Assembly (NCBI RefSeq): GCF_020165855.1 | Contig: NZ_JAIUFY010000014.1 | Location: forward strand, 434,001 to 498,000 | Origin: Celeribacter litoreus | GTDB lineage: Bacteria > Pseudomonadota > Alphaproteobacteria > Rhodobacterales > Rhodobacteraceae | Reading direction: 5' to 3' | DNA length: 64,000 nt | Shown: piece by piece, positions 1 through 21,925 of the stretch | Layout of the letters: the number at the start of each line of letters is the position of its first letter | How positions within the stretch are numbered: position 1 is the first letter of the stretch | The notes under the pieces: generated by a model | The model's database searches: none | The model's input: only the letters and a program-made list of their open reading frames with translations | Told to the model about the DNA's origin: nothing | Translations under genes and position numbers: made by a program

Positions 1-1037
1 TCGAGAATGCGGGCTGCACTGATCCCCATCCGCGCGGTTTCCCAGATGGAGCCGGACGGGCCGCCGGAAATATCGGAGCCAAACCCGACCTCCAGCCCTT
101 TCTCGAGCGCGACGCGGAGCGGAAAGACAGCACCGGCGAAATAGGCGTTCGACAGCGGGCAATGTGCGACGCCCGCGCCGTGGGAGACCATCAGGTCCAT
201 GTCACTCTCGGAGAGATGCGTGCCGTGGGCGAAAACGGCGTTCTCCCGCAGGAGGCCGAAGCGCTTGAACGCCTCCGCGTCTGAGCATCCGCAACGATCC
301 TGAACAAACCCGTGCTGCCAATCGCTCTCCGAGACATGGCTCTGAACATGCGCGCCAGTCGCTTTGGCGAGCGCTCCGAGCCCTTCGAGGCAGGCATCGG
401 TGCAGGACGGAATAAAGCGAGGTGTAATCACCGGATGCACCATCCCGTCATTGTTGGGCAGCCCACGGATGAAGTCGATGACCTCCCGCGTGCCTTCGAT
501 GGCCTCTTCCGGCGAGGCATCGCGATAATAGGGCGGGCATAGCTCCGGATCGTCCATCGCGACCTTGCCCACGAGTGCGCGCTGGCCTTTCGCGAGGCAA
601 ATCTCCGCGAGGCGTTTGGTGGCCGGCACGTGGATCGTCGCGAAATGCAGCGCAGTGGTGGTGCCGATGGCGAGCATGTCCTCGATGAGTGTGCTATAGA
701 CCTCATCTGCGTAGCTGAGGTCTTCGAACCGCGCTTCGAGCGGGAAAGTGTATTTTTGCAGCCAGTCCTCGAGCGGTTCATCCAATGCTGCGCCGAGTTG
801 GGCGTATTGCGGCGCGTGGACGTGGAGATCGACGAGACCGGGGATAAGGAGCCAGTCTTCGGGGAGATGGATCGCCCCCGTCAGGTCTCCGTCCGGCTCA
901 ATCACCGTAATCACGCCCGCGTCGTCAATCGTCATGACGGCATTCGTGAAGGTCTCTACGACGCCGAGTTTTGGCGCATGAAATCCGGAAAAAACGACCT
1001 TACACCCGCGCAGATCGCTCAGGTCAGGCGTGCTCAT
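1..1037 (-). CDS. guaD: Guanine deaminase, 3' end beyond window edge
   Basis: Hydrolyses guanine to xanthine and ammonia in purine catabolism (cytoplasmic amidohydrolase). Read on the minus strand from ATG at 1037, about 345 codons are present. The usual family length is near 430-440, so roughly the last 90 residues lie outside the window. Visible motifs: the HxH metal site in GLVDLHVHAPQ (H72, H74), PRFIPSCTD, the metal histidine in HVSESDWQH, AVFAHGTHLSESD and AHCPLSNAYF, then GFGSDISGG with the metal aspartate. The start codon overlaps the stop of the upstream oxygenase gene by 4 bp (ATGA), so it is the last visible gene of the leftward transporter/deaminase operon. The assignment rests on guanine-deaminase signatures and is more specific than for the other amidohydrolases here. 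Confidence 0.88.
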   Translation of the reverse strand, partial: MSTPDLSDLRGCKVVFSGFHAPKLGVVETFTNAVMTIDDAGVITVIEPDGDLTGAIHLPEDWLLIPGLVDLHVHAPQYAQLGAALDEPLEDWLQKYTFPLEARFEDLSYADEVYSTLIEDMLAIGTTTALHFATIHVPATKRLAEICLAKGQRALVGKVAMDDPELCPPYYRDASPEEAIEGTREVIDFIRGLPNNDGMVHPVITPRFIPSCTDACLEGLGALAKATGAHVQSHVSESDWQHGFVQDRCGCSDAEAFKRFGLLRENAVFAHGTHLSESDMDLMVSHGAGVAHCPLSNAYFAGAVFPLRVALEKGLEVGFGSDISGGPSGSIWETARMGISAARIL

Positions 1038-1906
1038 GCCGCTCTCTCGTCAGTGACAGCCGGCCCGAGGGTCGTGCCATAGACGCAGCCCTTTTCCTTG
1101 AGCCAGCGGCGATAGGCGATAGAGGAGGCATCCGCGCGGGTCGGAGTTTCTGTGCGCGGTTCTAGTGGCAACAGAAGAGGGCGCTGGTTTTCGAGGATGA
1201 TGCGGTCTTGCAGGAAAATCACCTGCTGGAAGGCAATCAGATCGGCGTCCGAACTCTCCTCGTCCAACAGGAACATGAGCGGATGCGCGCGGCACAGGCC
1301 CGGCTCCATCGGCTGCACGAAGAGGCAGATCACATCCCAGCGCTCATCCGAGATAGGGCAGGTCTTGTAGAGCAGCACCGTGAACGGCGTCGTCACGCGA
1401 TAAATGTAATCGGTGCGAATTGCGCCCTGTGCGGATTTGGCCGCCTGCGGTTGGGTAAAGACGCAGTCGGTCGCCCACACCTCATCCACGTCGCGGCGGA
1501 TTTCGCATTTGTATTTCTCGACTTCGGGATGCTCCTCAGAGCCGAGGATATCCGTGTGAACGAACGGAAAATGCGCCATGTCGAGGAAGTTCTCGATCAC
1601 GCGCGGGGCGGAGGAACGCACTTTGACGACGCCACAGGGGACATAACGGCGGTCAGGTTCGTCCGCCTCGGAAATCTCTGGCACATCGGTGTTCGGATTG
1701 CCGAGCGTGGACCAGACATAGCCATAACGCAGTCGGACGGGCAGGGCGCGTGCGCCAGTCGTCTCATGCGCGGTCACAGTAGGGGCCTCGCCGCCCGTCA
1801 GGGAAAGATCAACGCCCAACAGGCGCGTGGTCATGCCCTCGCTCGGAATTTCAGCGATGTTCTGGATGCAATACCATTGATCGAGCGTGGCTTTATCGAG
1901 TGTCAT
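1034..1906 (-). CDS. Rieske-oxygenase catalytic subunit lacking the Rieske cluster domain (copy 1)
   Basis: 290 aa. It resembles the C-terminal catalytic domain of VanA/PaO/dicamba-monooxygenase type oxygenases. The mononuclear non-haem iron ligands are all visible in family spacing: N106, D109, H112 and H117 within ENFLDMAHFPFVH, and D234 in FLQDRIILENQ. The N-terminus starts like a Rieske oxygenase (DQWYCIQ, then TTRLLGVDLSL) and rejoins the fold at YGYVWSTLGNP, but the intervening CxH...CxxH [2Fe-2S] segment is absent. The protein therefore cannot receive electrons through a cluster of its own. ATG at 1906 is chosen because GGAG lies just upstream, overlapping the stop of the deaminase gene. 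The stop overlaps guaD. A paralogue lies at 14936-15775, and a separate Rieske protein at 8625-9263 may supply the cluster. The substrate is unknown. Confidence 0.8.
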   Translation of the reverse strand: MTLDKATLDQWYCIQNIAEIPSEGMTTRLLGVDLSLTGGEAPTVTAHETTGARALPVRLRYGYVWSTLGNPNTDVPEISEADEPDRRYVPCGVVKVRSSAPRVIENFLDMAHFPFVHTDILGSEEHPEVEKYKCEIRRDVDEVWATDCVFTQPQAAKSAQGAIRTDYIYRVTTPFTVLLYKTCPISDERWDVICLFVQPMEPGLCRAHPLMFLLDEESSDADLIAFQQVIFLQDRIILENQRPLLLPLEPRTETPTRADASSIAYRRWLKEKGCVYGTTLGPAVTDERAA

Positions 1907-1916
1907 GAATTGCTCC

Positions 1917-3323
1917 TCAGGCGTAAATCCGGTCCATCGTATCCGCATGATCGCGCAGAGCGGCGTCGATATCCAGACGGGTAAACGCACCTTTTTCGAC
2001 AACGGGCACCCCGTTGATGAAAGAGTAATCAACATCGAACGGACCGCACATCACGAGCGCGGCAAGCGGATCACGCTGCGTGCCTGCCATGCCGAGGCGC
2101 GTTCGCTTCACGGCGATGATGTCTGCGGATTTGCCGATGGCAATCTGGCCGATGTCGTCGCGGCCAAGGAGTTTCGCCCCGCCACGCGTCGCCATCCAGA
2201 GCGACTCCCGCGCAGACAGCGCCGTCGGCGTGCCGCCAAACCCGCCGCGCCCGCCAGGGGTCTCCGACAGATACCGATCCGGCGCAACGCGTTGGAGAAA
2301 CTGGGCAAAGCGGACTTCGGAGAACATGTTCGACGTGTCGTTCGAGGCAGAACCATCGACGCCGAGGCCCACCGTGACGCCCGCGTCCAACATCTCCCGC
2401 GCCCGCATGATCCCGAGGCCACACCGCATATGCGCAGAGGGGCAAAAGGTCGCCCCTGTGCCCGTCTCGGCAAAGGCCTTGATCTCCGCGTCATTGAGGA
2501 AAATCGCATGGGCAAACCAAACATCCGGCCCGAGCCAGTCACAGCTCTCCGCATAGGCAACCGACCGCATGCCGTAGGTTTCGAGGCAATATTCTTCCTC
2601 GGAAAGCACTTCGGCGATGTGGGAATGCAGGCGTACACCCTCATAGGAGCGCGCGAGTGCGGCGGCGTCTTTCATCAGACCTTGGGTCACGGAAAACGCC
2701 GAACAGGGCGCGAGGACAATGCGCGTCATCGCGTGATCGGACATGTCGTGATAGGTGGTGATCAGTCGTTCCGCGTCTTTGAGAATGGCGTCTTCGTCTT
2801 CGACACAGCTATCCGGCGGCAGACCGCCCTTGCTCTCCCCACGGCTCATGGCGCCGCGGGCGGCGTGAAAGCGCATCCCCATTTCTTGGGCCACGCGAAT
2901 GGGCGTGTCGAGTGTGCAATCGTTGGGCATGATGTATTGGTGATCGGAACTGGTGGTGCACCCCGACATGATCAGCTCCGCCATCGCCATCCGCGACGCG
3001 GTCTCCATCGCCCGATCATCGAGCCGAGCCCAGATCGGGTAGAGCGTCTTCAGCCAGACAAACAACTCGTCGTCCTGCACCATCACGCGGGTGAGGTTCT
3101 GATAGAAGTGGTGATGCGTGTTCACCATCCCCGGCATGACGACGTGGTCGGACATGTCGAGCACGCGGTCCGCGCCTTCGGGGCATTCCGACATGGGGCC
3201 ACAGGCGGCGATCACCTTGTCGCGGATGAGGACAAACCCGTCGGAAATTTCAGTGCCCGCGTCCCGCGCCTCTCCATCGAATGTGGCGAGGTGCGAGACG
3301 TGTTTGAGGAGGGTGGTGCTCAT
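1917..3323 (-). CDS. 8-oxoguanine deaminase-like TRZ/ATZ amidohydrolase
   Basis: 468 aa metal-dependent amidohydrolase of the TRZ/ATZ subgroup, which deaminates or dechlorinates aromatic N-heterocycles. MVNTHHHFYQNLTR carries the HxH site (H70, H72). Further metal and catalytic positions are seen in RLHSHIAE, VWFAHAIFL and GLGVDGSASND, and TSSDHQYIMPN is typical of the 8-oxoguanine deaminase / hydroxydechloroatrazine hydrolase branch. ATG at 3323 overlaps the stop of the permease gene by 4 bp (ATGA), and the stop is followed within 11 nt by the Rieske-less oxygenase. Position between a nucleoside-type importer and guanine deaminase supports an oxidised purine such as 8-oxoguanine as substrate. 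Substrate specificity is inferred and a triazine- or pterin-like compound is possible. Confidence 0.75.
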   Translation of the reverse strand: MSTTLLKHVSHLATFDGEARDAGTEISDGFVLIRDKVIAACGPMSECPEGADRVLDMSDHVVMPGMVNTHHHFYQNLTRVMVQDDELFVWLKTLYPIWARLDDRAMETASRMAMAELIMSGCTTSSDHQYIMPNDCTLDTPIRVAQEMGMRFHAARGAMSRGESKGGLPPDSCVEDEDAILKDAERLITTYHDMSDHAMTRIVLAPCSAFSVTQGLMKDAAALARSYEGVRLHSHIAEVLSEEEYCLETYGMRSVAYAESCDWLGPDVWFAHAIFLNDAEIKAFAETGTGATFCPSAHMRCGLGIMRAREMLDAGVTVGLGVDGSASNDTSNMFSEVRFAQFLQRVAPDRYLSETPGGRGGFGGTPTALSARESLWMATRGGAKLLGRDDIGQIAIGKSADIIAVKRTRLGMAGTQRDPLAALVMCGPFDVDYSFINGVPVVEKGAFTRLDIDAALRDHADTMDRIYA

Positions 3324-4255
3324 CGTTGATCCCGATAGTAGGGTTGGGTGATGCCTTCGGGCGCGGCCATCAGGCGACGCATCCTTTGCCATGTGATGAC
3401 GGGCACGATCATCAGGGCCATGGTCCCGAGGTAGGGCAGCATCGACAGGAAGGACGCCGCGACAGGCCAGTTCCGCGCCTGTCCGACAAAGCCGAGCGCG
3501 GTGACAAAGCCGAACAGCAGCCCCGCGAGTACGGCGTTGATCGGACGGAACCCTGCGAAGATCACAAGTGCGACGGCGATCCAGCCACGACCTGCGACAA
3601 CACCTTCGGACCAGCTTGGGACGAACGAGAGGGTGAGATAGGCGCCCGCGCCCGCCGCGAGCGACGCGCCGAGAGACGTATACCAAAACCGCATCTTCAT
3701 CACCGGAATACCCGCCGCATCCGCCGCCGCTGGATTTTCACCGACTGCGCGCATGTTGAGGCCATGACGGGTATAGAACATCATGTAGTGAAGGGCGAGC
3801 GGCAGAGCGAGGAAGATGATATAAACTAAGAGGTTATGGCTAAAGAAGGCCCGCCCGAAGAACGGCAGATCGGAGAGGAGCGGGATATGGATGTCCTCGA
3901 ATGTGGCGGGGACGGGCGAGCCGGAGAAGGGCTTGCCGATGGTGGCCGCCATACCTGTGCCGATGTAGGTGAGCGCGAGGCCGCAGAGGACTTGGTTCGC
4001 GCGGACGACGACGGTCGCTGTGGCAAAGACCATCCCTGCGCCAAGGCCCACGAGCAGCGCTACGATCAGGCCGAGCCACGGAGAGCCGGTGCCAACGACG
4101 GTCGCGACCGCAGACATCGCCCCGAGCGCAATCAGGCCCTCAACGCCGAGGTTCACAACGCCGACACGTTCCGCGAGCACTTCGCCCAAAGCGGCGAGCG
4201 CGAGAACGCCCCCCGCGAGAAAGGCCGTTTGAATGAGACCTGCGAGAATATCCAT
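3320..4255 (-). CDS. ABC transporter permease, nucleoside/BMP-type (second permease)
   Basis: 311 aa integral membrane permease of the BPD_transp_2 family (RbsC/LivH-like; NupQ/BmpC type). It has about eight to nine hydrophobic segments, beginning with ILAGLIQTAFLAGGVLALAALG and including the typical GVVNLGVEGLIALGAMSA and NLLVYIIFLALPLAL. It pairs with the permease at 4257-5312, which is separated by one nucleotide, and with the double-domain ATPase upstream. Its stop overlaps the start of the deaminase gene. Members of this family import purine nucleosides or nucleobases, and the downstream deaminases fit that use. The exact ligand is not determined. Confidence 0.85.
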   Translation of the reverse strand: MDILAGLIQTAFLAGGVLALAALGEVLAERVGVVNLGVEGLIALGAMSAVATVVGTGSPWLGLIVALLVGLGAGMVFATATVVVRANQVLCGLALTYIGTGMAATIGKPFSGSPVPATFEDIHIPLLSDLPFFGRAFFSHNLLVYIIFLALPLALHYMMFYTRHGLNMRAVGENPAAADAAGIPVMKMRFWYTSLGASLAAGAGAYLTLSFVPSWSEGVVAGRGWIAVALVIFAGFRPINAVLAGLLFGFVTALGFVGQARNWPVAASFLSMLPYLGTMALMIVPVITWQRMRRLMAAPEGITQPYYRDQR

Positions 4256-4256
4256 C

Positions 4257-5312
4257 TCAGCTTTCCCCCGTTTTCGTGCGCAGAACTTTGTAATGGGCGG
4301 CTTCGTCGCCGATGGCGGCGTAGAGCAGGATGAGACCTGTGACCGCGAGCACGGTGTGCGTGGTGAGGCCCTGTGATTGAAGGATGATCCCGCCGTTGAG
4401 GATCACGGCCATGAAGAACGCCGTTGCCAGCACACCCAGAGGGGCAGCACGGGCGAGGACGGCGACCATGATGCCGATGTAGCCGTAGTTGTTGGAAATG
4501 CCGCCTTGGAGACGTCCGACGGTGCCTGCGACCTCCATCATGCCGCCGAGACCTGCAATGGCCCCGGAGAGGAGCATGACGCCGATCAACTGGGTTTTGA
4601 CGGGCATGCCAGCGTAGGAAGCCGCCCCTGCGTTCGCCCCCGCGATGCGGACCTCATAGCCCCAACGTGTGTAGGTGAAGAACAGAGCCAGAGCGAAGGC
4701 GAGGATAATGCCAATCGGCAGACCCCAATGGACGATGCCCCAGACAGGCGGCACAGAGACCGGCAGGCGTGCGGTGGTGGCGAGCGCCATGCCCGACGGA
4801 TCGAGCCACGGACCGGTTGCGACCCAGTAAACCAGCAGCATCGCGACGAAGTTCATCAGCAACGTGGTGATGAGTTCCGACACATCCGCGTAGGCGCGGG
4901 CGAGCGTCGGGATCAGAATCCAGAGTGCGCCGCCAATGGCCCCTGCGACCATCATCAGAATAAGGATGAGCCACGTCGGCCCCGGCACAAAGAGCGCAAT
5001 CCCCGCCGCACAGAAGGCGCCGAAGTTGAACTGACCCTCTGCCCCGATGTTCCACGCGCCAATGCGCAGCGCAACGGCGACGGCGAGGCCGCAGTAGATC
5101 AGCGGGGAAAGGAGGAGCGAGAGGTCTTCAAGACCGAAAGTAGACCCGAACGTGGAGGAAATTACTTTGCCGCCGAGAGCAATCGGATCACGGCCCGTCG
5201 CCCAAAGGACGATGGCTGTGGTCAGAAGGGCGAGCAAAACGGAGATGATCCGCAGCACAAAGGAGACCTTTGCAGGCGCAATCGGCATGCGTTGGAGGCG
5301 AATGGTGCTCAT
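4257..5312 (-). CDS. ABC transporter permease, nucleoside/BMP-type (first permease)
   Basis: 351 aa, NupP/YufP-type permease. The hydrophobic segment after SFVLRIISVLLALLTTAIVL is followed by ISSTFGSTFGLEDLSLLLS and the family motif RIGAWNIGAEGQFNFGAF, which is characteristic of permeases working with BMP-family binding proteins. It lies between the ATPase gene (ATGA overlap) and the second permease gene (1-nt gap), so all are likely made from one transcript at matched levels. Role: transmembrane channel for a nucleoside- or nucleobase-like ligand. Confidence 0.86.
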   Translation of the reverse strand: MSTIRLQRMPIAPAKVSFVLRIISVLLALLTTAIVLWATGRDPIALGGKVISSTFGSTFGLEDLSLLLSPLIYCGLAVAVALRIGAWNIGAEGQFNFGAFCAAGIALFVPGPTWLILILMMVAGAIGGALWILIPTLARAYADVSELITTLLMNFVAMLLVYWVATGPWLDPSGMALATTARLPVSVPPVWGIVHWGLPIGIILAFALALFFTYTRWGYEVRIAGANAGAASYAGMPVKTQLIGVMLLSGAIAGLGGMMEVAGTVGRLQGGISNNYGYIGIMVAVLARAAPLGVLATAFFMAVILNGGIILQSQGLTTHTVLAVTGLILLYAAIGDEAAHYKVLRTKTGES

Positions 5313-6883
5313 TCTGCGGCCTCCTGACGTTTGCCGCCCATCATCAGGCCGATCTCTTCAACATCCGCGCCTTTGGTCGGGACAATGCCCATGATCTCGC
5401 CGTGGAACATCACGGCGATCCGGTCGGAAAAGTTCATCAGTTCTTCCAGTTCCTCGGAAATGAGCAGAACGCCGACGCCCTTGTCACGAAGCTCGACAAA
5501 ATAGCGCATCATCGTATTGATCGCGCCCACATCGAGACCACGGGAGGGGTAGGCCGCGACGAGGATTTTATCGGCGATCCGCATTTCGCGGCGGGCGACG
5601 AGACGCTGCTGGTTGCCGCCAGAGAGATTGCGGGCGGGCATGGCAAAATCTGGCACCATGACCTCGGCAACCTTCGCAATCTCGCGGGCGAGGTTGGTCG
5701 CGCCTTTCGGAGAGAACCAGCCTTTGCGCGTGAGGGGCGGCTGGCTGTATTCACGCAGCACGGCGTTGTCGGTGATCGAGAGCGTCGGCGCCATGCCTGA
5801 GTGCAAACGGTCCTCGGGAATATGCCCGATACCCTTCTGCGCCATCGCGCGGGCACCGGCTTGCGTGACGTCAGCACCATCAAGAGTGATTGTGCCGCTC
5901 GTTGGGGTCGCGAGGCCGGTCATCACATAGGTCAACTCGCGCTGGCCGTTGCCCGCGACACCAGCCACGCCGAGGATTTCCCCCGGACGCAGGTCGAGGG
6001 AGATATTTTTGAGTACGGTTCCCTGTGCGGTCGTGAGGCTCACATCCGAGAGGCTCAGACAGGGCGCGACATCGGCCGCAGGCGCGGCACGTTCGCCGGT
6101 CTCTGTCAGGACGATCTCACGTCCGACCATCATTTGGGCGAGGCTCTTTTCGGTGCAGTTTTCCGTCCACTCGGTCGCAACCTTCCGGCCTCCGCGGAGC
6201 ACAGTCACGCGGTTGGAGATTTCCATCACTTCGTCGAGTTTGTGGGAGATAAAGATCACCGCATTGCCGCGCGCGGTGAAGGCCCGGAGCGCTGCGAAGA
6301 GTTCACGCGCCTCTTTCGGCGTCAGAACGGCGGTCGGCTCATCAAGGATCAGCAGTTTTGCATCCCGCGCCAACACGCGCAGGATTTCGACGCGCTGTTG
6401 CTCGCCTGTCGAAATGTCCGCCACGACAGCGGACGGGTTCACCGCCAGCCCAAGCTCTTCCGACAGTTTTGCCGTGCGGGTCTCCAGCGTGCGTCGGGAA
6501 ATGCGTTTCGGGGTGTCCGGCCAGCCGAGATGGACGTTTTCAGCGACGGTAAAGGCGCGCACGAGTTTGAAGTGCTGGTGCACCATCCCGATGCCCGCCT
6601 CGATCGCGTCGGTCGGGGAGGCGAAGTCGCGCGTCTCGCCGCCAACGATCACTTCGCCTGCATCCATTTTGTAGATGCCGGTCACGATATTCATCAGCGT
6701 GGATTTGCCCGCGCCGTTTTCGCCCAGAAGGGCGTGGATTTCGCCGGGGTAGACCTCGAGGTTGACGTCCTCGTTGGCGATCACTCCGGGGAAGTATTTG
6801 CTCACGCCCTTGAGCGCGAGAATAGGAGGCGTCCCGGGCGCGAGCCCGAGACGCTGTTGGATTGGATCGGGAAGTCCCGTCAT
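5309..6883 (-). CDS. ABC transporter ATP-binding protein, two fused nucleotide-binding domains
   Basis: 524 aa, RbsA/MglA/NupO-like ATPase with two ABC domains in one chain. The first domain has Walker A GENGAGKSTLMNI, signature STGEQQRVEILR and Walker B LLILDEPTAVL followed by a switch histidine in VIFISHKLDE. The second domain (from about residue 275) has a degenerate Walker A GVAGNGQRE, signature LSGGNQQRLVARRE and no canonical Walker B acidic pair (ILVAAYPSRGLDVG). This asymmetry is usual for the family. ATG at 6883 lies 15 nt after the stop of the binding-protein gene. It energises the two permeases encoded next in the operon. Confidence 0.9.
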   Translation of the reverse strand: MTGLPDPIQQRLGLAPGTPPILALKGVSKYFPGVIANEDVNLEVYPGEIHALLGENGAGKSTLMNIVTGIYKMDAGEVIVGGETRDFASPTDAIEAGIGMVHQHFKLVRAFTVAENVHLGWPDTPKRISRRTLETRTAKLSEELGLAVNPSAVVADISTGEQQRVEILRVLARDAKLLILDEPTAVLTPKEARELFAALRAFTARGNAVIFISHKLDEVMEISNRVTVLRGGRKVATEWTENCTEKSLAQMMVGREIVLTETGERAAPAADVAPCLSLSDVSLTTAQGTVLKNISLDLRPGEILGVAGVAGNGQRELTYVMTGLATPTSGTITLDGADVTQAGARAMAQKGIGHIPEDRLHSGMAPTLSITDNAVLREYSQPPLTRKGWFSPKGATNLAREIAKVAEVMVPDFAMPARNLSGGNQQRLVARREMRIADKILVAAYPSRGLDVGAINTMMRYFVELRDKGVGVLLISEELEELMNFSDRIAVMFHGEIMGIVPTKGADVEEIGLMMGGKRQEAAE

Positions 6884-6898
6884 TCGTATGCGTCCCGC

Positions 6899-8023
6899 TT
6901 AGGTGTCGAGACCGGACACGCCCTCGATGGACCAGTTCCAGTGGTAGAGTTCTTCTTCGGTCATGGTCTGACCTGCGGCGACTTTGATGTTGCCTTTGGT
7001 GTCTTTGAGTTCGCCCATGAACGGGTTGAAGGAGCCATCCATGATCGACGCTTTGACGGCGTCGGCTTTGGCAGCCACATCGGCCGGAACGGTTTCGCCC
7101 CATGCGTCAACATTCACACCTCCGCCGAACGGCAGCAGATCATAGGACGGGGTCCATTCACCAGCGAGGCGACGGCGGACCTGTTCGACGTAGAACTCTT
7201 TGAAGTCGACGATGATGGAAGAGATGTAAGCGTTCGGACCATAGCGACGCAGGTCGGTGTTCCACATCACGGCTTTCGCACCGCGCTCTTCTGCGACCTG
7301 CAGGTAGCCAGCTTCGTCCATGATGCCGAACAGAACGTCACAGCCGTTGTCGATGAGCGCGGTGCCGGCCTGCGTTGCGGCCTGCGGATCGAACCAGCTG
7401 TTGATGACGATGGTCTGGAGCGTGGCTTCCGGATTGACGGTGCGCGCGCCCATGAGGAAGGCGTTGGTGCCGGAGTAGACGGACGGAACCGGGAAGGAGG
7501 CCACGTAGCCGAGCTTGCCGGAGGGCGACATGGCGCCTGCGGCGATACCGGCGACGTAGGACGGATACCAGTGGGACACATAGTAGGTGCCAAGGTTGTC
7601 GAGTGGGTTGCGCCCGTCGGCCTCATAGAAGGCCACATCCGGTGCCCGTTTTGCAACGTCGTAGAGGAAGTCACCGTAGTTGGAGGTCGCGAACACCATG
7701 CAGGCGTCGTCTGCGACGAACTGGCGGAAGATGCGGGTCGCGTCGGCTGCGTAGGGGATGCTCTCGACGTAGGAGGTGCGCAGTTTCGGGAAGGCGGCTT
7801 CAACCGCTTTCATGCCTTGGTCGTGCGCCCAGGTCCAGCCTTCGTCCGAGGTCGGGCCGGTGTGGCCGAAGGCGATGTGCGCGTCTTCTTCTGCGACCGG
7901 TGCGAGCGGACCTGCGGCGTAGGCCGGTTTGATCAGTCCGGTTTTCGGCAGAATGAGACCCGCACCAGCGGCGGCGCCCATGTTGAGAAAGCCGCGACGG
8001 GACAGGGATTTGGTGGAAATCAT
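6899..8023 (-). CDS. BMP-family ABC transporter substrate-binding protein with Tat-like signal
   Basis: 374 aa periplasmic binding protein of the Med/BMP/PnrA family, typical of nucleoside and nucleobase importers. The chosen ATG at 8023 gives a signal of the form SLSRRGFLNMGAAAGAGL, a twin-arginine motif, with probable cleavage after KPAYAAG. A longer reading up to 8191 would put about 56 charged residues ahead of the signal and is rejected. Family features: AFGHTGPTSDEGWTWAHDQG near the mature N-terminus, then ATSNYGDFLYDVAKRAPDVAF and KLGYVASFPVP. First gene of the leftward operon, so it likely sits just behind the divergent promoter region 8024-8364. The Tat-like signal is unusual for a binding protein and suggests folding before export. 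Confidence 0.85.
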   Translation of the reverse strand: MISTKSLSRRGFLNMGAAAGAGLILPKTGLIKPAYAAGPLAPVAEEDAHIAFGHTGPTSDEGWTWAHDQGMKAVEAAFPKLRTSYVESIPYAADATRIFRQFVADDACMVFATSNYGDFLYDVAKRAPDVAFYEADGRNPLDNLGTYYVSHWYPSYVAGIAAGAMSPSGKLGYVASFPVPSVYSGTNAFLMGARTVNPEATLQTIVINSWFDPQAATQAGTALIDNGCDVLFGIMDEAGYLQVAEERGAKAVMWNTDLRRYGPNAYISSIIVDFKEFYVEQVRRRLAGEWTPSYDLLPFGGGVNVDAWGETVPADVAAKADAVKASIMDGSFNPFMGELKDTKGNIKVAAGQTMTEEELYHWNWSIEGVSGLDT

Positions 8024-8628: not shown

Positions 8629-9263
8629 CACAGTCAGGATGGGTGCCTGTTGCGCTCTCCGCAATGATCGAGGCGGGTACGTCTGCGGGTGTTGTCGTCG
8701 ACGGCGCGGAAATCGTCGTTTGGCGGGACATATCGGGTAAGGCCCACGCGTGGGAAGATCGCTGCCCGCACCGCGGGATGAAGATGAGTTTCGGTTTTGT
8801 GCGCGGCGATCACATCGCCTGCCTGTATCACGGCTGGGAATATGACGAGAGCGGCAACTGCCAATACATTCCGGCGCACCCCGATCTCGAAGTTCCGAAA
8901 TCCATCTGCATCTCGCGCTACGGCGTGGCGGAAACGGGCGGTATGATCTGGGCGCATGTGCCGCTCGGGTCTGAGGCCGGTGCTGCGCCTGAACTCGCGG
9001 AGGCTGAAGGGCTGCGGTCGCTGTATGTCGATGCGTCTGTCGCTGCGGTAGCGTCGGCGCTCGGTTCCGATGTGTCCGGTTCTATGCTCACGGTCTCTAC
9101 GGCAGACGTCGCGCTCTCCATCGGTGTTCAGCCGATTTCCGATACCCAATGCGCGCTTCACGTCACGGTGCCGATGGGCACTTCTGTGGAGGAGAAAAAC
9201 GCTGTTCTCGATTGGTGCGAAGCCCTGCGTCGTCAGGTTGAAAATTCGGAGGCCATGGCATGA
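8625..9263 (+). CDS. Stand-alone Rieske [2Fe-2S] protein of oxygenase type with no mononuclear-iron site
   Basis: 212 aa. Residues 1-130 form a complete oxygenase-type Rieske domain: C47-x-H49-x16-C66-x2-H69 in DRCPHRGMKMSFGF and HIACLYHGWEYDE, then GVAETGGMIWAHVP. The last 80 residues have no N/D/H/H mononuclear-iron motif. A stretch near ADVALSIGVQPISDTQ and a terminal helix look like a shrunken remnant of an oxygenase catalytic domain (inference). It is tightly coupled to the acylphosphatase-like gene upstream and the GST gene downstream, both by ATGA overlaps. It may provide the electron-transfer cluster for the two Rieske-less subunits at 1034-1906 and 14936-15775. A small ferredoxin role is the alternative. 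No reductase gene is seen nearby. Confidence 0.85.
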   Translation: MTQSGWVPVALSAMIEAGTSAGVVVDGAEIVVWRDISGKAHAWEDRCPHRGMKMSFGFVRGDHIACLYHGWEYDESGNCQYIPAHPDLEVPKSICISRYGVAETGGMIWAHVPLGSEAGAAPELAEAEGLRSLYVDASVAAVASALGSDVSGSMLTVSTADVALSIGVQPISDTQCALHVTVPMGTSVEEKNAVLDWCEALRRQVENSEAMA

Positions 9264-9880
9264 TCCTGCACAACTACGATCTGTACGAAGATTGCTACCG
9301 CGTCCGCTTGCTCGCGTCCTGCACTGAGCAGGAATTGGAGCTCGTCAACGTGGATGCATTTCCGGGCGCTGAGGAGAAATCTGAGACCTATCTCAAGCTC
9401 AATCCCCTCGGCCGTCTACCGATCCTCGAAGACGGCGATGTGATCCTGCGCGATTTGGCGGCGATCCTGATTTATGTCGCGGAAAAAGACGCAAAAGCGC
9501 GGTTCATTCCGACCGAGGCCAAAGCGCGTGCCGCCATGTTTGACTGGCTCGGTTTTGCCTGCGGTGATCTCTCCGTTGCGACGCAGGCCCGTGCCGTCGC
9601 GTTGCTCGACGCACCAGGCGATGGTGTTGCGCTCCGTGCGCAGGCGCGTGCGCTTTTCCGCGTTTTGGATGATCACCTGACCCGTCAGGCGCTGAGCGGG
9701 CAGGGCTATGTGGCCGGTGACACCGCCACACTCGCCGATCTCGCGCTCTTCCCTGCCTTTGCGCTGTCTCGCGATTTCAATCTCGACCATGACGAATTTC
9801 CGGCCCTGCGCCTTTGGGCGCGTCGTATGCGGACCCTTCCAGGGTTCATCACGATGCCGGGCATTCCCGACTACCACTAA
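9260..9880 (+). CDS. Glutathione S-transferase family protein
   Basis: 206 aa, usual GST length. The N-terminal thioredoxin-like domain reads YDLYEDCYRVRLLASCTEQ, then KLNPLGRLPILEDGDVILRDLAAILIYVA, with the cis-proline in LPIL and the acidic residue after it that contacts glutathione. The C-terminal helical domain includes AGDTATLADLALFPAFA, the typical N-capping box region. It may isomerise or conjugate a ring-cleavage intermediate, or protect against reactive products of the oxygenases. The ATG overlaps the Rieske gene stop, so both are co-translated. The specific reaction cannot be inferred. Confidence 0.85.
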   Translation: MILHNYDLYEDCYRVRLLASCTEQELELVNVDAFPGAEEKSETYLKLNPLGRLPILEDGDVILRDLAAILIYVAEKDAKARFIPTEAKARAAMFDWLGFACGDLSVATQARAVALLDAPGDGVALRAQARALFRVLDDHLTRQALSGQGYVAGDTATLADLALFPAFALSRDFNLDHDEFPALRLWARRMRTLPGFITMPGIPDYH

Positions 9881-9889
9881 GGAGCTCCC

Positions 9890-10813
9890 GTGGATCTTCA
9901 TCGTCTCGGCCTCGTTTCTTCCCGCGTCCACCATTTCGCTCTGGTGGCGCGTCTCGGGTCCATCCGTCAGGCCGCGCTGACGCTCAATGTCGCACCGTCG
10001 TCGATCTCCCGTGCGATCAAGCAGCTTGAAGAAGACCTCGGAACCCCTTTGTTCGAAAGAACAAAACAGAGACTCAAGCTGACGTCGGCAGGTGAATTGC
10101 TCGATTATCATATCAAGCAATCCTCTGTTGAGATGAACCGCGCCCTCACGGAAATCGGCGACCTTCAGGGGCTTCGTCGTGGCACGGTGACGGTCGCAGT
10201 CATCGAGAGTGCGGCGCGCGGCATCCTGCCTGATGTGCTCGCCGGTTACTGGATTCGCCATCCGGAAATCAGCGTGGATGTGCGGGTTGTCGGTTCTCAG
10301 GAAGCCGTCGATCTCGTGCATCAGGGGGAGGCCGATCTGGCGCTCGCCTTTGATGTGCGCGTGCCACGCAATGCACGCAAGCTGAACTCCATCGCCATGC
10401 CGCTCGGGGTGCTCGTCCCGCCGGGAAGCGCACTCACCAAACGCGAGGGCAAGCTGCGGAGCTACGACCTCGCAGGCGAACGCGTGATCTTGTCTGATAG
10501 CTCTCTGACGCTGGGGAGTTCGGTGGAACAGATGTTCTCCGGCTCCTTTGTGGAGTTCTCCCGCCGCGCGCGCACCAACTCGATCGGGTTGATGATCGAC
10601 CTCGCGACTCGGGGTCTCGGGACGATTCTGCAGACAAAAATCGGGGTGCAGGCGGAGATCGCCAGAGGGCAACTCGTCTTCATCCCTCTGTCCGATCCGG
10701 GGATCGGATTGCGCCGTTTGACCCTCGTGTCACGCCCGAAAGGCGAGGTTTCCGAGGCCGCACAAGCGCTCGCGGACTCGCTTGCCGCCGTCATTGAGGC
10801 GATGCGGGACTAG
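9890..10813 (+). CDS. LysR-family transcriptional regulator (first)
   Basis: 307 aa. The N-terminal winged helix-turn-helix is visible as FALVARLGSIRQAALTLNVAPSSISRAIKQLEEDLGTPLFERT, followed by a type-2 periplasmic-binding-like effector domain. GTG start at 9890 with GGAG at 9881-9884. It follows the GST gene by 9 nt in the same direction, so it may be partly cotranscribed with the Rieske genes, and it sits directly before the TPP/GMC/Mo-hydroxylase operon. It probably senses an intermediate of the pathway and controls one or both flanking promoters. The 17-bp palindrome at 10826-10842 just downstream is a candidate operator. Confidence 0.88.
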   Translation: MDLHRLGLVSSRVHHFALVARLGSIRQAALTLNVAPSSISRAIKQLEEDLGTPLFERTKQRLKLTSAGELLDYHIKQSSVEMNRALTEIGDLQGLRRGTVTVAVIESAARGILPDVLAGYWIRHPEISVDVRVVGSQEAVDLVHQGEADLALAFDVRVPRNARKLNSIAMPLGVLVPPGSALTKREGKLRSYDLAGERVILSDSSLTLGSSVEQMFSGSFVEFSRRARTNSIGLMIDLATRGLGTILQTKIGVQAEIARGQLVFIPLSDPGIGLRRLTLVSRPKGEVSEAAQALADSLAAVIEAMRD

Positions 10814-10825
10814 TGTTGCGTTCAG

Positions 10826-10842
10826 TCGAACATTTCGTTCGA
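10826..10842. promoter_or_regulatory. Palindromic candidate operator upstream of the TPP-decarboxylase operon
   Basis: TCGAAC-ATTTC-GTTCGA, perfect 6-bp arms with a 5-bp spacer. It lies 75 bp upstream of the ATG at 10918, between the LysR gene and the operon it probably regulates. Binding by that LysR protein is inferred. Confidence 0.5.
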
Positions 10843-10917
10843 AAATAATCGTCTTTTGGGAACAGTTTTTTCCTGACAGTCTGCATTTAACACGACACAC
10901 ACGCCGGAGAATTTAAT

Positions 10918-11418
10918 ATGAAGCAAAGCTCTGTCGACGCCGTGATCCGGGGGCTCAAACGGGCCGGGGTCTCGATTGTTTGCTATTTGCCAGACAGTCT
11001 GTTCAAGGAACTCTACCCCGCACTCGACGCCGATCCCGATATTCGCACCATTCAAGTGACGAACGAGGGGGAGGGCGCGGCCATCTGTGGCGGTGTTTTC
11101 CTGTCCGGCAAACGTGCGGCGCTCGTGATGGAGAACTCCGGACTGCGGGCCTCGGTCGAACCGCTCGCACGGATGGGCCTAGGGGCCGGTATTCCGGTTT
11201 TCATGCTCCTGAGCTATCGCGGCGATATGGGCGAAAACAACTGGTGGGCGGTGCCGCACGGCATCACCATGGAGCCGGTGTTGCAGGCGCTGCGCATTCC
11301 CTATGCCGTCGAACGCGAAGAAGACCGCATCGAGCAGGCCATCGTGGATGCCTATGAGCTGGCCTATTCCTCCTACTACCACACGGCTGTGGCCCTGTCC
11401 GGGAGCATTGTGCGATGA
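10918..11418 (+). CDS. Thiamine-diphosphate-dependent decarboxylase, alpha (PYR-domain) subunit
   Basis: 166 aa, the N-terminal pyrimidine-binding half of a TPP enzyme, resembling ComD of sulfopyruvate decarboxylase and the N-domain of phosphonopyruvate decarboxylase. VTNEGEGAAICGGVFLSG carries the glutamate (E50 or E52) that activates the cofactor, and VMENSGLRASVEPL is a family motif. The partner PP domain is encoded next with a 4-bp ATGA overlap, so the two form one active site. Family members decarboxylate 2-oxoacids to aldehydes. An aldehyde dehydrogenase closes the same operon (19268-20776), which fits. Neither sulfonate nor phosphonate genes are nearby, so the 2-oxoacid is unknown. Confidence 0.82.
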   Translation: MKQSSVDAVIRGLKRAGVSIVCYLPDSLFKELYPALDADPDIRTIQVTNEGEGAAICGGVFLSGKRAALVMENSGLRASVEPLARMGLGAGIPVFMLLSYRGDMGENNWWAVPHGITMEPVLQALRIPYAVEREEDRIEQAIVDAYELAYSSYYHTAVALSGSIVR

Positions 11419-12023
11419 AACGTTTCGACTGTATGACCAAACTGGCCGCACGCCTGTCCGACGAACTGGTGATCCTGTCGCTCGGGGCCTCTGTGGACGA
11501 ATGGTATAACGCCGCGCCGCATATGCGGCAGGCATCCCTGTTTCAGCAACAACTCGGCTGTGTGACCCCGCAGGCCTTTGGCCTCGCTGCCGGTCTGCCG
11601 GATCGACAGATCGTATCTCTCGACACCGATGGCGGGTTGCTCTTCAACCTCGGTATCCTCGCAACGTTGGGCAACGAGCAGCCGAAGAATCTCTTTGTTG
11701 TGGTCTGGGATAACGAGCAATATCAATCCATTGGCGGCCCGAAAACGCATACGGCGTCCGGTCGGGTTGACCTCGCGGGGATTGCGCGCGCCTCTGGCGT
11801 GGATCACGCATACACCGCGACCACGCTCGAAGAATTCGACGCGCATTGTGAGGCGGGGCTGAAGTCCGATACGCCCTATGTCGTCGTCGCAAAAGTGTCC
11901 GGCACGGTTCAGCCGGAGATCAAGCGCAAGCATTCGGACGGGCGTGAAGACAAATATATCTTTGTGCGCCACGTTGAGAAAACTGAAGGGATCACCATCA
12001 TGGGCCCTTCCGAGCACAACTGA
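11415..12023 (+). CDS. Thiamine-diphosphate-dependent decarboxylase, beta (PP-domain) subunit
   Basis: 202 aa, the pyrophosphate-binding half, ComE-like. The TPP/Mg motif is D70-T-D72-G-G followed by about 27 residues and N100 in VVVWDNEQYQSIG. The N-terminal SLGASVDEWYNAAP and LGCVTPQAFGLAAGLPD agree with the sulfopyruvate/phosphonopyruvate decarboxylase group. It overlaps the alpha subunit gene by 4 bp and is followed after 8 nt by the GMC oxidoreductase. Its C-terminus, from about residue 165, is longer than needed for the PP core and rich in lysine and arginine (EIKRKHSDGREDK); the meaning is unclear. Confidence 0.82.
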   Translation: MKRFDCMTKLAARLSDELVILSLGASVDEWYNAAPHMRQASLFQQQLGCVTPQAFGLAAGLPDRQIVSLDTDGGLLFNLGILATLGNEQPKNLFVVVWDNEQYQSIGGPKTHTASGRVDLAGIARASGVDHAYTATTLEEFDAHCEAGLKSDTPYVVVAKVSGTVQPEIKRKHSDGREDKYIFVRHVEKTEGITIMGPSEHN

Positions 12024-12031
12024 GGCAGACC

Positions 12032-13555
12032 ATGAAGACCAGCTTCGATTATATCGTGATTGGCTCCGGCACTGGCGGGGCAGCGGTTGCGCGACGCCTG
12101 CATGATGCGGGGGCCGAGGTCGCCGTGATTGAGGCTGGTAAGTCTACATTCGGCGTGCCGGAGATTGAGGACCCGTCCCAGTGGTTCGGTCTCCAGACCG
12201 GCGCTTGGGATTGGGGGCATCATTACACCACGACCGACCGCATTCTGGGTCGCGATATTCCGATCCCGCGGGGCAAGGGCCTCGGTGGATCGTCTGCGAC
12301 CAATGCGATGATGTGGTATCGCGGTGTGCCAGAGGATTATGCCCGCTGGGATGCCGTGGCCCCCGGTTGGTCGTGGGAGGACTGCCTTCCGGCCTACAAG
12401 GCCTGCGAAACGTGGGAATACGGAGAAACCGCGCTCCGTGGTGGTTCCGGACCTCTCGAAATCACACGTCCCGACCCGCATCACCCGCTCACGCAATCCA
12501 TGCTGAAGGGTGGCGCAGCCATGGGGCTTCCGGTCGTTGATGACCCCAACGGACCGGAGCCTTTTGGCGTGGGGCTCGCGAATTTCAACATTGATCGGCA
12601 GGGGCGGCGGAACACCTCTGCGAACGCCTATCTGGAGCCGATCATCGCGTCGGATCGCCTTAACATCTTCACGAAAACCCTTGCTCTGTCGCTGATTTTT
12701 CAGGGTGATAAGGCGACGGGCGTGCGTGTGAGCGGGCCTGACGGCGAATTGGACCTGACCGCGCATTCCGGCGTGGTTCTGGCGGCCGGTGCGCTCGAAA
12801 CACCGCGCTTGCTCATGCTGTCAGGCATTGGTGCAGAGGCGGAACTGGCGCGTCTCGGTGTGCCGCTCAAGGTCAAGGCTGAGGCCATCGGCCAGAACTT
12901 CCAAGACCACCCGCTATTGCGAGCGCTGAACTTCCGCGCCACATCGCCGCTCGGCGCCATGAAGGGCAACGGGGGCGGGACGCTCACCATCTGGAAATCG
13001 GATGAGGCGCTGCCGCAGGCTGATTTGCTCGCCTTCCCGATTCAGGGCCGTTCTGCCGTGCCCGCACTTTGGGACCATTACACGCTCGACGGTGACGATG
13101 TGTTTGCGGTCGGCCTCGGGGTGATGCGGTCGTTCTCCAAAGGCGAACTGCGGCTCACGAGTGCTGACCCGACCGCGCCGCTCGATATCCAGCCGAACCT
13201 CCTCTCTGACCCTCGCGATCTCGCAGCCCTCGTGAGCGGTGTGGAGTTCCTGATGGATATGGTCGCCTCCGAGGGGTTCGACGGCTATTTCAAGGACTAC
13301 GTGGCCCCGCTGCGCGAAGACGACATCGAGACCTTCGTGCGTCGCTCCTGTTCCACCTTCTTCCACTGTTGTGGCACCGCCCGAATGGGCGCTGCCGATG
13401 ACGCCCCTGTTTCCCCTCAGTTGGGTGTCAAAGGTGTTCGCGGCCTCTGGGTCGCGGATGCCTCTGTTATTCCTGAAATTCCCGCCTGTCACACCCATGC
13501 GCCGGTCACGATGATCGGCGAGCGGGCGGCCACATTCATACTGGAGGACGCATGA
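12032..13555 (+). CDS. GMC-family FAD oxidoreductase (choline dehydrogenase-like)
   Basis: 507 aa. The FAD-binding dinucleotide motif is at the N-terminus (YIVIGSGTGGAAVARRLHD, then VAVIEAG), followed by the GMC signature GKGLGGSSATNAMMWYRG and AAGALETPRLLMLSGIG. The catalytic pair appears as H in FFHCCGTARMG and H in CHTHAPVTMIGERAA. His/His resembles glucose-oxidase-type members, whereas choline dehydrogenase has His/Asn. It oxidises an alcohol to an aldehyde or ketone using FAD. It lies between the TPP enzyme and an amidohydrolase with an ATGA overlap at its end. Its substrate within the heterocycle pathway is unknown. Confidence 0.87.
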   Translation: MKTSFDYIVIGSGTGGAAVARRLHDAGAEVAVIEAGKSTFGVPEIEDPSQWFGLQTGAWDWGHHYTTTDRILGRDIPIPRGKGLGGSSATNAMMWYRGVPEDYARWDAVAPGWSWEDCLPAYKACETWEYGETALRGGSGPLEITRPDPHHPLTQSMLKGGAAMGLPVVDDPNGPEPFGVGLANFNIDRQGRRNTSANAYLEPIIASDRLNIFTKTLALSLIFQGDKATGVRVSGPDGELDLTAHSGVVLAAGALETPRLLMLSGIGAEAELARLGVPLKVKAEAIGQNFQDHPLLRALNFRATSPLGAMKGNGGGTLTIWKSDEALPQADLLAFPIQGRSAVPALWDHYTLDGDDVFAVGLGVMRSFSKGELRLTSADPTAPLDIQPNLLSDPRDLAALVSGVEFLMDMVASEGFDGYFKDYVAPLREDDIETFVRRSCSTFFHCCGTARMGAADDAPVSPQLGVKGVRGLWVADASVIPEIPACHTHAPVTMIGERAATFILEDA

Positions 13556-14922
13556 GCGACCTGATCCTGACCGCCGAGGCAATCGTCACCATGAACGCGG
13601 GGCGCGAGACGCTCACCGATGGGGCGATCCTCGTCAAAGGCGACGCGATTGCAGCCATCGGGCCGAAGGCCGAGATCGTCGCCGCGAACCCAGATGTGAA
13701 GGTCAAGGATTTCGGTCGTGCCGTCCTCATGCCGGGTCTGATCAACGCCCACGCCCACTCCGGTTTCCTGCGCGGCACGGCGGAACACCTGCCGGTCTGG
13801 GACTGGCTCACGCAGCACATCAATCCGATGCACCGCGTGCTCCTGCCCGAAGAGGCCGAGGCGGCAAGCTATCTCGCCTATGCCGAGAGCCTTTTGGGCG
13901 GGACAACCACCATCGTCGACATGTGGCGGCACATGGACGGTTCTGCGCGCGCGGCTGAGGTGCTCGGCAACCGCCTGATCGCCGTGCCCTATGTGGGTGA
14001 GCATCCGGATTACGACTATTTCGACACGCTCGACATGAACGAAGGCATGATCGACCGCTGGAACGGCAAGGCGCAGGGCCGCGTCAATGTCTGGGTCGGG
14101 CTCGAGCATCTGTTCTACGCGGACGAAAAGGGCCAACAACGCGCCATTGATATGTCCAAACAATACGGCGTGCCGTTCCACACCCATTGCTCCGAGGCTG
14201 AAATCGAACTCGCCGAGTTCCAGACGCGCTATGGCAAGAAACCGATGGAAGTGTTCCGCGATCTCGGGTTCTTCGAGACACCGCTCGCCATGTTCGCGCA
14301 CGCGGTCTGGTTCTCGCCGGAAGAGGTGGAGATGGTCGCGGAGTATAACGTCTCTGTCGCCCACAACCCCGTGTCGAACATGAAGCTCGCTTCGGGAATT
14401 GCCCCGATCAAGGAAATGCTCGCCGCCGGTGTGCCGGTCGGCATCGGCACGGACGGTGAGAAGGAAAACAACAACTTCGACATGTTCGAAGAGATGAAAA
14501 CCGCTTCCCTCAAAGGCAAACTGCGTGAACTCGATGCGGCGGCGATGGACAGCTGGAGCGTGTTGGAAATGGCGACCTGCCTCGGCGCGAAGGCGGTTGG
14601 TCTCGATGAGGTCACAGGCTCGCTCGAAGTGGGCAAGAAGGCCGATATCATCGCCGTTGATGGCAAAAGCCCGCGGATGACGCCGTTCTTCCCCGATGGC
14701 CGCTGGTTCAACCTGCAACACAACCTCGTCCACGCCGTGCGCGGCAGTGACGTGCGCATGACCATGGTGAACGGTGAGATTTGCGTGGATGAAGGCAAGC
14801 TGGTTTCCGGCGACATGGCCGAGATCATCGACCGTATCACCCGCCTCGCGCCGGGGCATTTCGCGCGTCGTCAGACGTGGCTCGACGCCAATGGCGGCGG
14901 CACGGCACAGTGGACAGACTGA
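13552..14922 (+). CDS. TRZ/ATZ-family amidohydrolase (deaminase)
   Basis: 456 aa metal-dependent hydrolase related to S-adenosylhomocysteine/methylthioadenosine deaminases and s-triazine hydrolases. GLINAHAHSGFLRG gives the HxH site (H67, H69), with further metal-site positions in PFHTHCSEAE, AMFAHAVWF and GIGTDGEKENN. This is the third such enzyme in the island, after those at 1-1037 and 1917-3323. It probably removes an amino group from a ring intermediate rather than repeating the same step. It starts inside the GMC gene (ATGA) and is followed after 13 nt by the second Rieske-less oxygenase subunit, the same deaminase-oxygenase adjacency seen at 1034-3323. Confidence 0.83.
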   Translation: MSDLILTAEAIVTMNAGRETLTDGAILVKGDAIAAIGPKAEIVAANPDVKVKDFGRAVLMPGLINAHAHSGFLRGTAEHLPVWDWLTQHINPMHRVLLPEEAEAASYLAYAESLLGGTTTIVDMWRHMDGSARAAEVLGNRLIAVPYVGEHPDYDYFDTLDMNEGMIDRWNGKAQGRVNVWVGLEHLFYADEKGQQRAIDMSKQYGVPFHTHCSEAEIELAEFQTRYGKKPMEVFRDLGFFETPLAMFAHAVWFSPEEVEMVAEYNVSVAHNPVSNMKLASGIAPIKEMLAAGVPVGIGTDGEKENNNFDMFEEMKTASLKGKLRELDAAAMDSWSVLEMATCLGAKAVGLDEVTGSLEVGKKADIIAVDGKSPRMTPFFPDGRWFNLQHNLVHAVRGSDVRMTMVNGEICVDEGKLVSGDMAEIIDRITRLAPGHFARRQTWLDANGGGTAQWTD

Positions 14923-14935
14923 GGAGACACTGACA

Positions 14936-15775
14936 ATGGCTGGCACCCTCGATCCTGTGGCTCTCAATGACTGGTATGCGGTCGCGACGTTGACCGATCT
15001 GGACAGGGCCGAAGAGACCAAACTCCTCGGTCATCCGATCACCGTGGGACCGGGAAAACAGGTGACACAGGACGGAAAAAGCCTCCCTGTACGCGAAAAG
15101 TTCGGGGTGCTCTGGACGACGCTCGGCACGCCTAACAAAGAGATCTTCAACATAGAAGAGAGCGAGGAAGAGGGCCGTCGCTTTGTCCCCTGTGGATGGG
15201 TGAAAATGCGCGCCTCTGGCCTGCGCGTCGTCGAGAACTTTCTCGATATGGCTCATTTCCCGTTCGTTCACACGGATATCCTCGGGTCCGAGCCGCACAC
15301 AGAGGTTCTGGGTTACAAGTCCGAAATCCGTCACGATGTGGATGAGGTCTGGGCGACCAACTGCAAGTTCTTTCAGCCACAAATGACGAGCACTCGTCCG
15401 GACGGCGAATTCGCGCAGCTCACCTACCGTGTGCCGTCGCCTTATGTCGTGATGCTCTACCGCGTCGTGCCAGACACGGACGGGGTGCAGGACGCGATTG
15501 CACTGTTCATTCACCCGATCGAGGAAGATTTGGTGCGCGCCATTCCGGTGATGTATCTCACGGACCAGACCGCGACGCACACGCAACTCCTGCGGTTCGA
15601 GCAGGTGATCTTCCTACAGGACCGGATCATTGTGGAAAACCAGCGTCCGCTTTTGTTGCCGCTTGAGGCCCGCGCCGAAATTCCGACCCGTGCAGATAGC
15701 TCTTCCGTCGCCTATCGCCGCTGGCTCAAACAAAAGGGTCTGACCTACGGGACGACAACACCGGAGGCCGCATGA
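14936..15775 (+). CDS. Rieske-oxygenase catalytic subunit lacking the Rieske cluster domain (copy 2)
   Basis: 279 aa, paralogue of the 1034-1906 protein, alignable over nearly its whole length with long identical blocks (ENFLDMAHFPFVHTDILGSE; ENQRPLLLPLE). The mononuclear-iron ligands N101, D104, H107, H112 and D229 are present. The N-terminus keeps the strands that flank a Rieske domain (LNDWYAVATLTDL, ETKLLGHPITV, then REKFGVLWTTLGTP), but the cluster-binding segment with CxH and CxxH is cleanly missing. ATG at 14936 has GAGGAGA at 14921-14927. A longer reading would overlap the amidohydrolase gene. The stop overlaps the start of the Mo-hydroxylase gene (ATGA). It needs a cluster supplied in trans, plausibly from 8625-9263. 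Confidence 0.82.
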   Translation: MAGTLDPVALNDWYAVATLTDLDRAEETKLLGHPITVGPGKQVTQDGKSLPVREKFGVLWTTLGTPNKEIFNIEESEEEGRRFVPCGWVKMRASGLRVVENFLDMAHFPFVHTDILGSEPHTEVLGYKSEIRHDVDEVWATNCKFFQPQMTSTRPDGEFAQLTYRVPSPYVVMLYRVVPDTDGVQDAIALFIHPIEEDLVRAIPVMYLTDQTATHTQLLRFEQVIFLQDRIIVENQRPLLLPLEARAEIPTRADSSSVAYRRWLKQKGLTYGTTTPEAA

Positions 15776-21807: not shown

Positions 21808-21893
21808 CATACGTTAACATCTGAGTGCACACATTTTGCTCTCACCTATGGAGAAATTTGGTTCTATCCGCACCGCAGCATTTCGCTCAAGAC

Positions 21894-21909: not shown

Positions 21910-21925
21910 AGAAAAGAGTGCTCAC

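Follow-up and report, generated by a model that had tools for sequence, protein, structure and literature searches.

Can a Rieske oxygenase work with its [2Fe-2S] cluster on one protein and its mononuclear iron on another? Inter-subunit electron transfer is the rule in Rieske oxygenases, and a 64,000-nucleotide stretch of the Celeribacter litoreus genome (contig NZ_JAIUFY010000014.1, positions 434,001 to 498,000; hereafter the window, numbered from its first nucleotide) carries three genes, RSK, CAT1 and CAT2, whose products divide the two sites between them. A reading made from the sequence alone had attributed this to complementary domain loss from a duplicated oxygenase whose parts now act as a hetero-oligomer. 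We place the system among the split oxygenases of the NdmCDE type, as a branch with a free Rieske protein, and put at about 0.82 the probability of the whole proposal, namely a Rieske monooxygenase of the NdmC/NdmD/NdmE kind that is split and works as a hetero-oligomer.

Cluster and mononuclear iron on separate proteins

RSK, 8625-9263, plus strand: 212 amino acids (aa), Rieske protein (PF00355, 1.2e-23) with a tail seen in the structure model and fold search
CAT1, 14936-15775, plus strand: 279 aa, NdmC-like Rieske-less oxygenase catalytic subunit (VanA_C, 4.7e-17; N101/D104/H107/H112/D229)
CAT2, 1034-1906, minus strand: 290 aa, NdmC-like Rieske-less oxygenase catalytic subunit (VanA_C, 1.7e-21; motif from N106, D234)

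CAT1 and CAT2 are 53% identical, and in both a weaker second Pfam match, KshA_C, overlaps the VanA_C region. Both keep every mononuclear-iron ligand in alignment, have no Rieske domain in the Pfam scan and lack the CxH...CxxH motif, all of which bears out the sequence-only reading, to which we add that CAT2 lies on the minus strand. Alignment with three intact oxygenases places a gap of 41-42 residues in the two proteins and shows the strands on either side to be retained, again as first described; in a Leptolyngbya oxygenase, for example, the gap of CAT1, CAT2 and NdmC falls on residues 39-80, where the cluster ligands lie at 51-73. The predicted structure of CAT1 (42 sequences, pLDDT 88.4, pTM 0.88) has SxtT and GxtA chains as its top Foldseek matches (0.80-0.88). 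Among relatives, the iron-ligand motif is present in all 91 CAT rows above 300 bits and the Rieske motif in none; this conservation is partly by construction in the 80 loci described below, as the patterns used to fetch them held parts of the iron motif, and the motif is also intact in all six additional CAT proteins obtained via tblastn.

RSK is the complement. It carries precisely the C47-x-H49-x16-C66-x2-H69 motif first reported for it, a search for the mononuclear-iron motif found none in it, and beyond PF00355 its only Pfam match is a sub-threshold Rieske_2. The CxH-x16-CxxH motif is kept in all 82 RSK rows above 150 bits (70 distinct), none of which has the mononuclear motif. In the predicted structure (53 sequences, pLDDT 95.0, pTM 0.90) the Rieske domain extends to about residue 112 and is followed by a strand (127-135), a helix, three strands (154-159, 162-170 and 176-183) and a final helix (188-211). 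Foldseek aligns this model with intact oxygenase chains over 240-312 columns, with query-length TM-scores of 0.60-0.79 in the 50 matches listed; since the Rieske part makes up only about half of RSK, the tail probably matches the catalytic domain too, and model and alignments together support the suggestion that it is a collapsed catalytic domain.

SxtDIOX and SxtT are the two top sequence relatives in the Protein Data Bank (PDB) of the CAT1 half and the RSK half alike, and intact oxygenases (SxtT/GxtA, NdmA/NdmB) are the nearest solved folds for both. Unlike the window proteins, these hold both metal sites in one chain; none of CAT1, CAT2 and RSK combines cluster and mononuclear iron as a canonical alpha subunit does. 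A frameshift artefact was rejected as the cause of the split, as each of the three reading frames is open and many genomes show the same arrangement. The E-values given above, together with conservation across many genomes, put these features beyond chance. Public annotation labels the copies encountered in annotated records just 'aromatic ring-hydroxylating dioxygenase subunit alpha' or '(2Fe-2S)-binding protein', and two CAT copies (locus L003, 11974-12840; L097, 10001-10876) bear the latter name despite the absent Rieske motif.

RSK might instead be a diffusible ferredoxin, a transient reductant of the CAT proteins or of other enzymes with no structural part in an oxygenase, and it is indeed a free Rieske polypeptide like the Rieske ferredoxins (for example, that of naphthalene dioxygenase). 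Those proteins, however, are about 100 aa long and have no catalytic remnant, whereas RSK retains one, and its match to oxygenase chains in the PDB (best, SxtDIOX, 1.4e-20) outscores that to the best ferredoxin (5.6e-7). The same remnant lies inside NdmD, which, according to reviews, assembles with NdmC and NdmE into a complex. PDB ranking, model tail and Foldseek alignments thus led us to reject an ordinary ferredoxin and disfavour service to an unrelated enzyme, and we regard the diffusible role in general as improbable.

Homology to the caffeine demethylase NdmCDE

The sequence-only reading knew of no characterised example of such a split. This is incorrect: the literature describes caffeine N7-demethylase NdmCDE as just such a split enzyme, and each of its three parts is matched by homologues in the window. 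NdmC-NdmD-NdmE of Pseudomonas putida CBB5 is a 7-methylxanthine N7-demethylase that forms a 3:3:3 complex. The third part corresponds to one of two small genes that adjoin RSK:

GST-like protein (GST), NdmE homologue, 9260-9880, plus strand: PF00043/PF02798; its start overlaps the RSK stop (ATGA)
ACY, small acylphosphatase-like protein, 8365-8628, plus strand: profile matches in relatives; its stop overlaps the RSK start (ATGA)

For comparison we used the P. putida plasmid pTmex-577K (L093), whose ndm-like cluster encodes two intact oxygenases, NdmC-, NdmD- and NdmE-like proteins and two formaldehyde-detoxification genes; its proteins are taken to correspond to the characterised ones by layout and by the published description (PMC4408171). 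The plasmid NdmC-like protein has no Rieske domain, and the NdmD-like protein has a Rieske domain together with NAD-binding and plant ferredoxin domains. CAT1 shares 43% identity with the former (1e-76), whose gap of 42-43 residues is placed as in CAT1 and CAT2; RSK matches the N-terminus of the latter (30% over 173 columns, 1e-26), and the 9260-9880 product is 38% identical to the NdmE-like protein (1e-44). The RSK profile matches stretches between 5 and 211 of the plasmid NdmD and reaches 184-193 in three other NdmD proteins, showing them to have the vestigial tail as well; in Paraburkholderia caffeinilytica NdmD the match stops at 149.

The window system thus resembles NdmCDE in its Rieske-less catalytic subunit with a matching gap, in a separate cluster-bearing chain with a vestigial catalytic tail and in its GST-like third component. 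It differs in that the Rieske part of NdmD is fused to an FNR/ferredoxin reductase whereas the 212-aa RSK is free and Rieske only, in having no linked reductase, in an ACY gene that overlaps RSK and in the two catalytic genes that flank RSK. In NdmCDE the Rieske chain continues into an NADH reductase; because RSK lacks this feature, we do not call the system NdmCDE. Complementary domain loss yielding a hetero-oligomer is therefore a claim of which the novelty falls and the substance stands, the hetero-oligomer being supported by homology to a purified complex.

The available text of PMC4408171 counts ndmCDE homologues in 18 other organisms, chiefly Sinorhizobium and Mesorhizobium, and does not state their architecture; in the titles, abstract openings and passages of the open literature consulted, we found no description of a free-Rieske form. 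A second precedent is the chlorophyllide a oxygenase of the alga Micromonas pusilla, described in PMC9615114 as an oxygenase in two polypeptide chains; it is algal, acts on another substrate and is likened here by description.

In trees, 39 CAT rows cluster together, apart from eight intact oxygenases (100/99; 200/200 bootstrap trees), with CAT grouping with NdmC and apart from HpxD; the rows include two that are NdmC-like, two from Sinorhizobium and the Variovorax fusion. Likewise, 27 rows of RSK and NdmD separate as a single group from eight intact Rieske domains (100/98; 200/200 bootstrap trees). With only eight intact relatives and no root inferred, these trees would fit one ancient split.

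Co-occurrence of the two halves across genomes

A genome scan returned at least 555 related stretches, the best 80 of which were taken as loci with up to 10 kb of DNA on each side. RSK is present in 76 of these, GST in 76 and ACY in 72, with ACY placed beside RSK among the loci listed. The four loci that lack RSK (L022, L032, L045 and L054) have an RSK-like frame elsewhere (3e-57, 4e-54, 1e-55 and 6e-31, respectively), and one plasmid record (L003, the plasmid alone) carries CAT without RSK. When 385 genomes were drawn evenly across the class, eight, the window genome included, proved to have CAT at 1e-50 or better, and all eight have a tailed RSK (8e-43 or better, reaching profile position 145 or beyond), as against none of the remaining 377. 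With the RSK model, sixteen other genomes also clear 1e-25; the matches there are weaker (best 6e-37), end at position 142 or earlier and lie in frames of 350-504 aa, for which reasons we take them as intact oxygenases. An in-frame stop is flagged in the CAT match of two of the eight genomes; even so, the profile is spanned there by open frames (303 and 291 aa). The conserved co-occurrence that the sequence-only reading had proposed as a check is therefore found, and the Rieske-less relatives without a partner that would have spoken against it are absent from the best 80 loci (four with RSK unlinked) and the 385 genomes. At eight in 385, the family is scattered, not common.

On a Lichenihabitans plasmid (L007, 9992-11192; L006, 3180-4070), an IS3 transposase lies near an RSK gene shortened to 136 aa and a GST broken into several frames, the apparent result of decay or mis-sequencing; CAT on that plasmid is open.

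Architectures and the sharing of RSK

Relatives join the same parts in different ways. Rhizobium leguminosarum, Qingshengfaniella and Agrobacterium have contiguous RSK, CAT, GST, amidohydrolase and Bmp transporter genes; Paracoccus alcaliphilus has RSK, CAT and GST with a separate VanB-type reductase, and acylphosphatase and 8-oxoguanine deaminase genes farther along; the NdmD-type fusion occurs in Pseudomonas, Klebsiella, Sinorhizobium and Paraburkholderia caffeinilytica. A Variovorax plasmid (L096, 8001-9815) encodes a CAT-reductase fusion of 604 aa with a free RSK. This is the single case found; a second candidate (G468) proved to be an NdmD type with two catalytic frames, and we dropped the fusion as a recurrent form. 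The reductase is thus attached to the Rieske half (NdmD) or the catalytic half (Variovorax), encoded as a separate neighbour (Paracoccus) or unlinked (the window), and with such varied attachment the parts may behave as interchangeable modules. Separately, a plasmid of the kombucha isolate Komagataeibacter nataicola (L136, 3015-5948) carries, next to one reductase, a second CAT/Rieske-like/GST set that has diverged; inspection by eye shows Val in place of the third ligand, Cys, in the Rieske-like protein of this set.

Two catalytic genes beside one Rieske gene, a possibility raised from the sequence, are found not only in the window: CAT1-like and CAT2-like loci lie together on 12 contigs among the 80 loci, and two loci (L044 and L051) have two CAT genes each. 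NdmD types with two CAT genes and one Rieske gene occur on Sinorhizobium pSymA (L094/L098) and in G468.

Whether both CAT proteins draw on RSK is a separate matter. Only CAT1 or CAT2 might do so, the other being a relic or served by another donor, and it fits this alternative that no CAT gene adjoins RSK in the window (CAT1 lies 5.7 kb downstream and CAT2 6.7 kb upstream) and that the DNA of many loci holds a single CAT. However, all ligands are intact in both proteins, a search of the genome found four Rieske frames in all (RSK and frames of 446, 452 and 193 aa), and the paired arrangement recurs on the 12 contigs, in L044 and L051 and beside one NdmD-like gene on pSymA; we therefore think exclusive use rather unlikely. 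A modular oxygenase, in which one free RSK, its shape maintained by what is left of its former catalytic domain, is common to two CAT proteins of differing specificity, with the reductase in trans, a GST scaffold and an acylphosphatase-fold subunit, has in our estimation an even chance of being correct.

Gene neighbourhood and substrate

The remaining genes around the system are as follows:

1917-3323, minus strand: 8-oxoguanine deaminase family amidohydrolase, beside CAT2 (NCBIfam NF006055, 580.7 bits, cut-off 532)
3320-8191, minus strand: PnrA/Bmp-type ABC transporter, comprising two permeases, ATPase and binding protein (PF02653 at 3320-4255, PF02608 at 6899-8191)
9890-10813, plus strand: LysR-family regulator (PF03466, PF00126)
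10918-12023, plus strand: two thiamine pyrophosphate (TPP)-enzyme halves, sulfopyruvate-decarboxylase-like, with an ATGA overlap (PF02776, PF02775; TIGR03845 103.6 bits, below cut-off)
12032-13555, plus strand: GMC oxidoreductase (PF00732, PF05199)
13552-14922, plus strand: TRZ/ATZ-group amidohydrolase, directly 5' of CAT1 (PF01979, 4e-59; no NCBIfam cut-off reached)
15772-18810, plus strand: xanthine-dehydrogenase-like molybdenum enzyme, with an ATGA overlap with CAT1 (pucD 663 bits, below the cut-off of 784)

The transporter genes at 4257-5312 and 5309-6883 are named from matching gene order in Rhizobium tumorigenes. ATGA overlaps at 8625-8628 and 9260-9263 link ACY, RSK and GST. Pfam acylphosphatase matches relatives of ACY (L002, 6.1e-5, above the cut-off; L005, 0.0011, below it) and gives no match to the window copy; nine columns are invariant across five ACY sequences. 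No Rfam family matches the window at gathering score, and a scan of 8100-9950 yielded no more promoters or terminators than shuffled sequence.

These neighbours point to an N-alkylated purine as the probable substrate. In R. tumorigenes, a guanine deaminase above its cut-off occupies the position of the window 8-oxoguanine deaminase, and at 1e-20 the 80 loci hold homologues of the deaminase in 61, the other amidohydrolase in 63, the binding protein in 64 and the xanthine-dehydrogenase-like enzyme in 43, counts in which the two amidohydrolases may cross-match. Cytokinin dealkylation was a guess on which literature titles and abstract openings gave nothing, and it was dropped. Farther along, 21836-29367 resembles a cyanurate- or barbiturate-type island, with two AtzD/TrzD ring-opening amidohydrolases (each above the NCBIfam cyanuric acid amidohydrolase cut-off), a FAD mono-oxygenase-like protein, an NMT1-type ABC transporter and an amidase; we rejected the idea that it belongs to the system, since the 80 loci contain none of its AtzD and FAD genes.

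Electron supply and proposed mechanism

RSK may receive its electrons from an NAD(P)H reductase whose gene lies elsewhere. NAD_binding_1 matches the genome five times; at one of these loci (L091, contig C15) the reductase profile, which has 320 positions, is matched over 7-320 with 311 bits, and at another (L090, contig C8) the score is 144. Both are remote from the window, and each has a Rieske frame, one of 452 aa and the other of 446 aa, 2-3 kb away, so that each may serve another oxygenase.

In the mechanism that we propose, RSK would bear the [2Fe-2S] cluster, its own catalytic domain reduced to a structural remnant, and CAT1 and CAT2 would bear the mononuclear iron, their cluster-binding segment having been deleted. 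RSK and CAT would dock through the type of interface that joins neighbouring subunits in ordinary trimers, electrons passing from the cluster through a conserved bridging acid (by alignment, D104 of CAT1) to the iron; the role of such an acid has been demonstrated in CntA (PMC7948474). The GST-like protein may hold RSK and CAT together, and ACY could be an additional small subunit or an assembly factor. An N-alkylated purine imported by the PnrA-type transporter would be dealkylated by CAT, and the product would go on to the deaminases and the xanthine-dehydrogenase-like enzyme, with CAT1 and CAT2 acting on differing substrates or positions.

Several observations weigh against this reading. 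The CAT tree carries a long-branch warning and the bootstrap of the RSK/NdmD tree is unsettled; the even draw scored just the best 6-7 candidates per genome, and the line dividing tailed RSK from intact oxygenases (145 versus 142 profile positions) was set post hoc. Unlike NdmD, neither the window nor the DNA of the 80 loci yields a reductase profile match at 80 bits or above, the NdmCDE complex has nothing corresponding to ACY as far as the published accounts available describe it, and the subset of window open reading frames scanned by family includes no formaldehyde-detoxification gene. This last absence, set beside the formaldehyde genes of ndm clusters, also favours a reaction other than N-dealkylation, such as the purine ring hydroxylation annotated for HpxD or another oxidation: HpxD, whose annotation is that of a xanthine hydroxylase, belongs to the intact Rieske oxygenases, and SxtT, the nearest fold, is a hydroxylase by the titles of its papers. 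The tree, however, places CAT with NdmC and not with HpxD, and we hold such a reaction to be unlikely, if a serious alternative. On balance, the window system most likely works like NdmCDE.

Implications

Electron transfer in Rieske oxygenases is hard to dissect because both metals usually sit on one chain. A natural split that places them on separate proteins would make the transfer step, the bridging acid and assembly testable by mixing subunits. If one Rieske subunit is indeed common to two catalytic ones, such sharing would also be a route by which these enzymes gain new substrate ranges.

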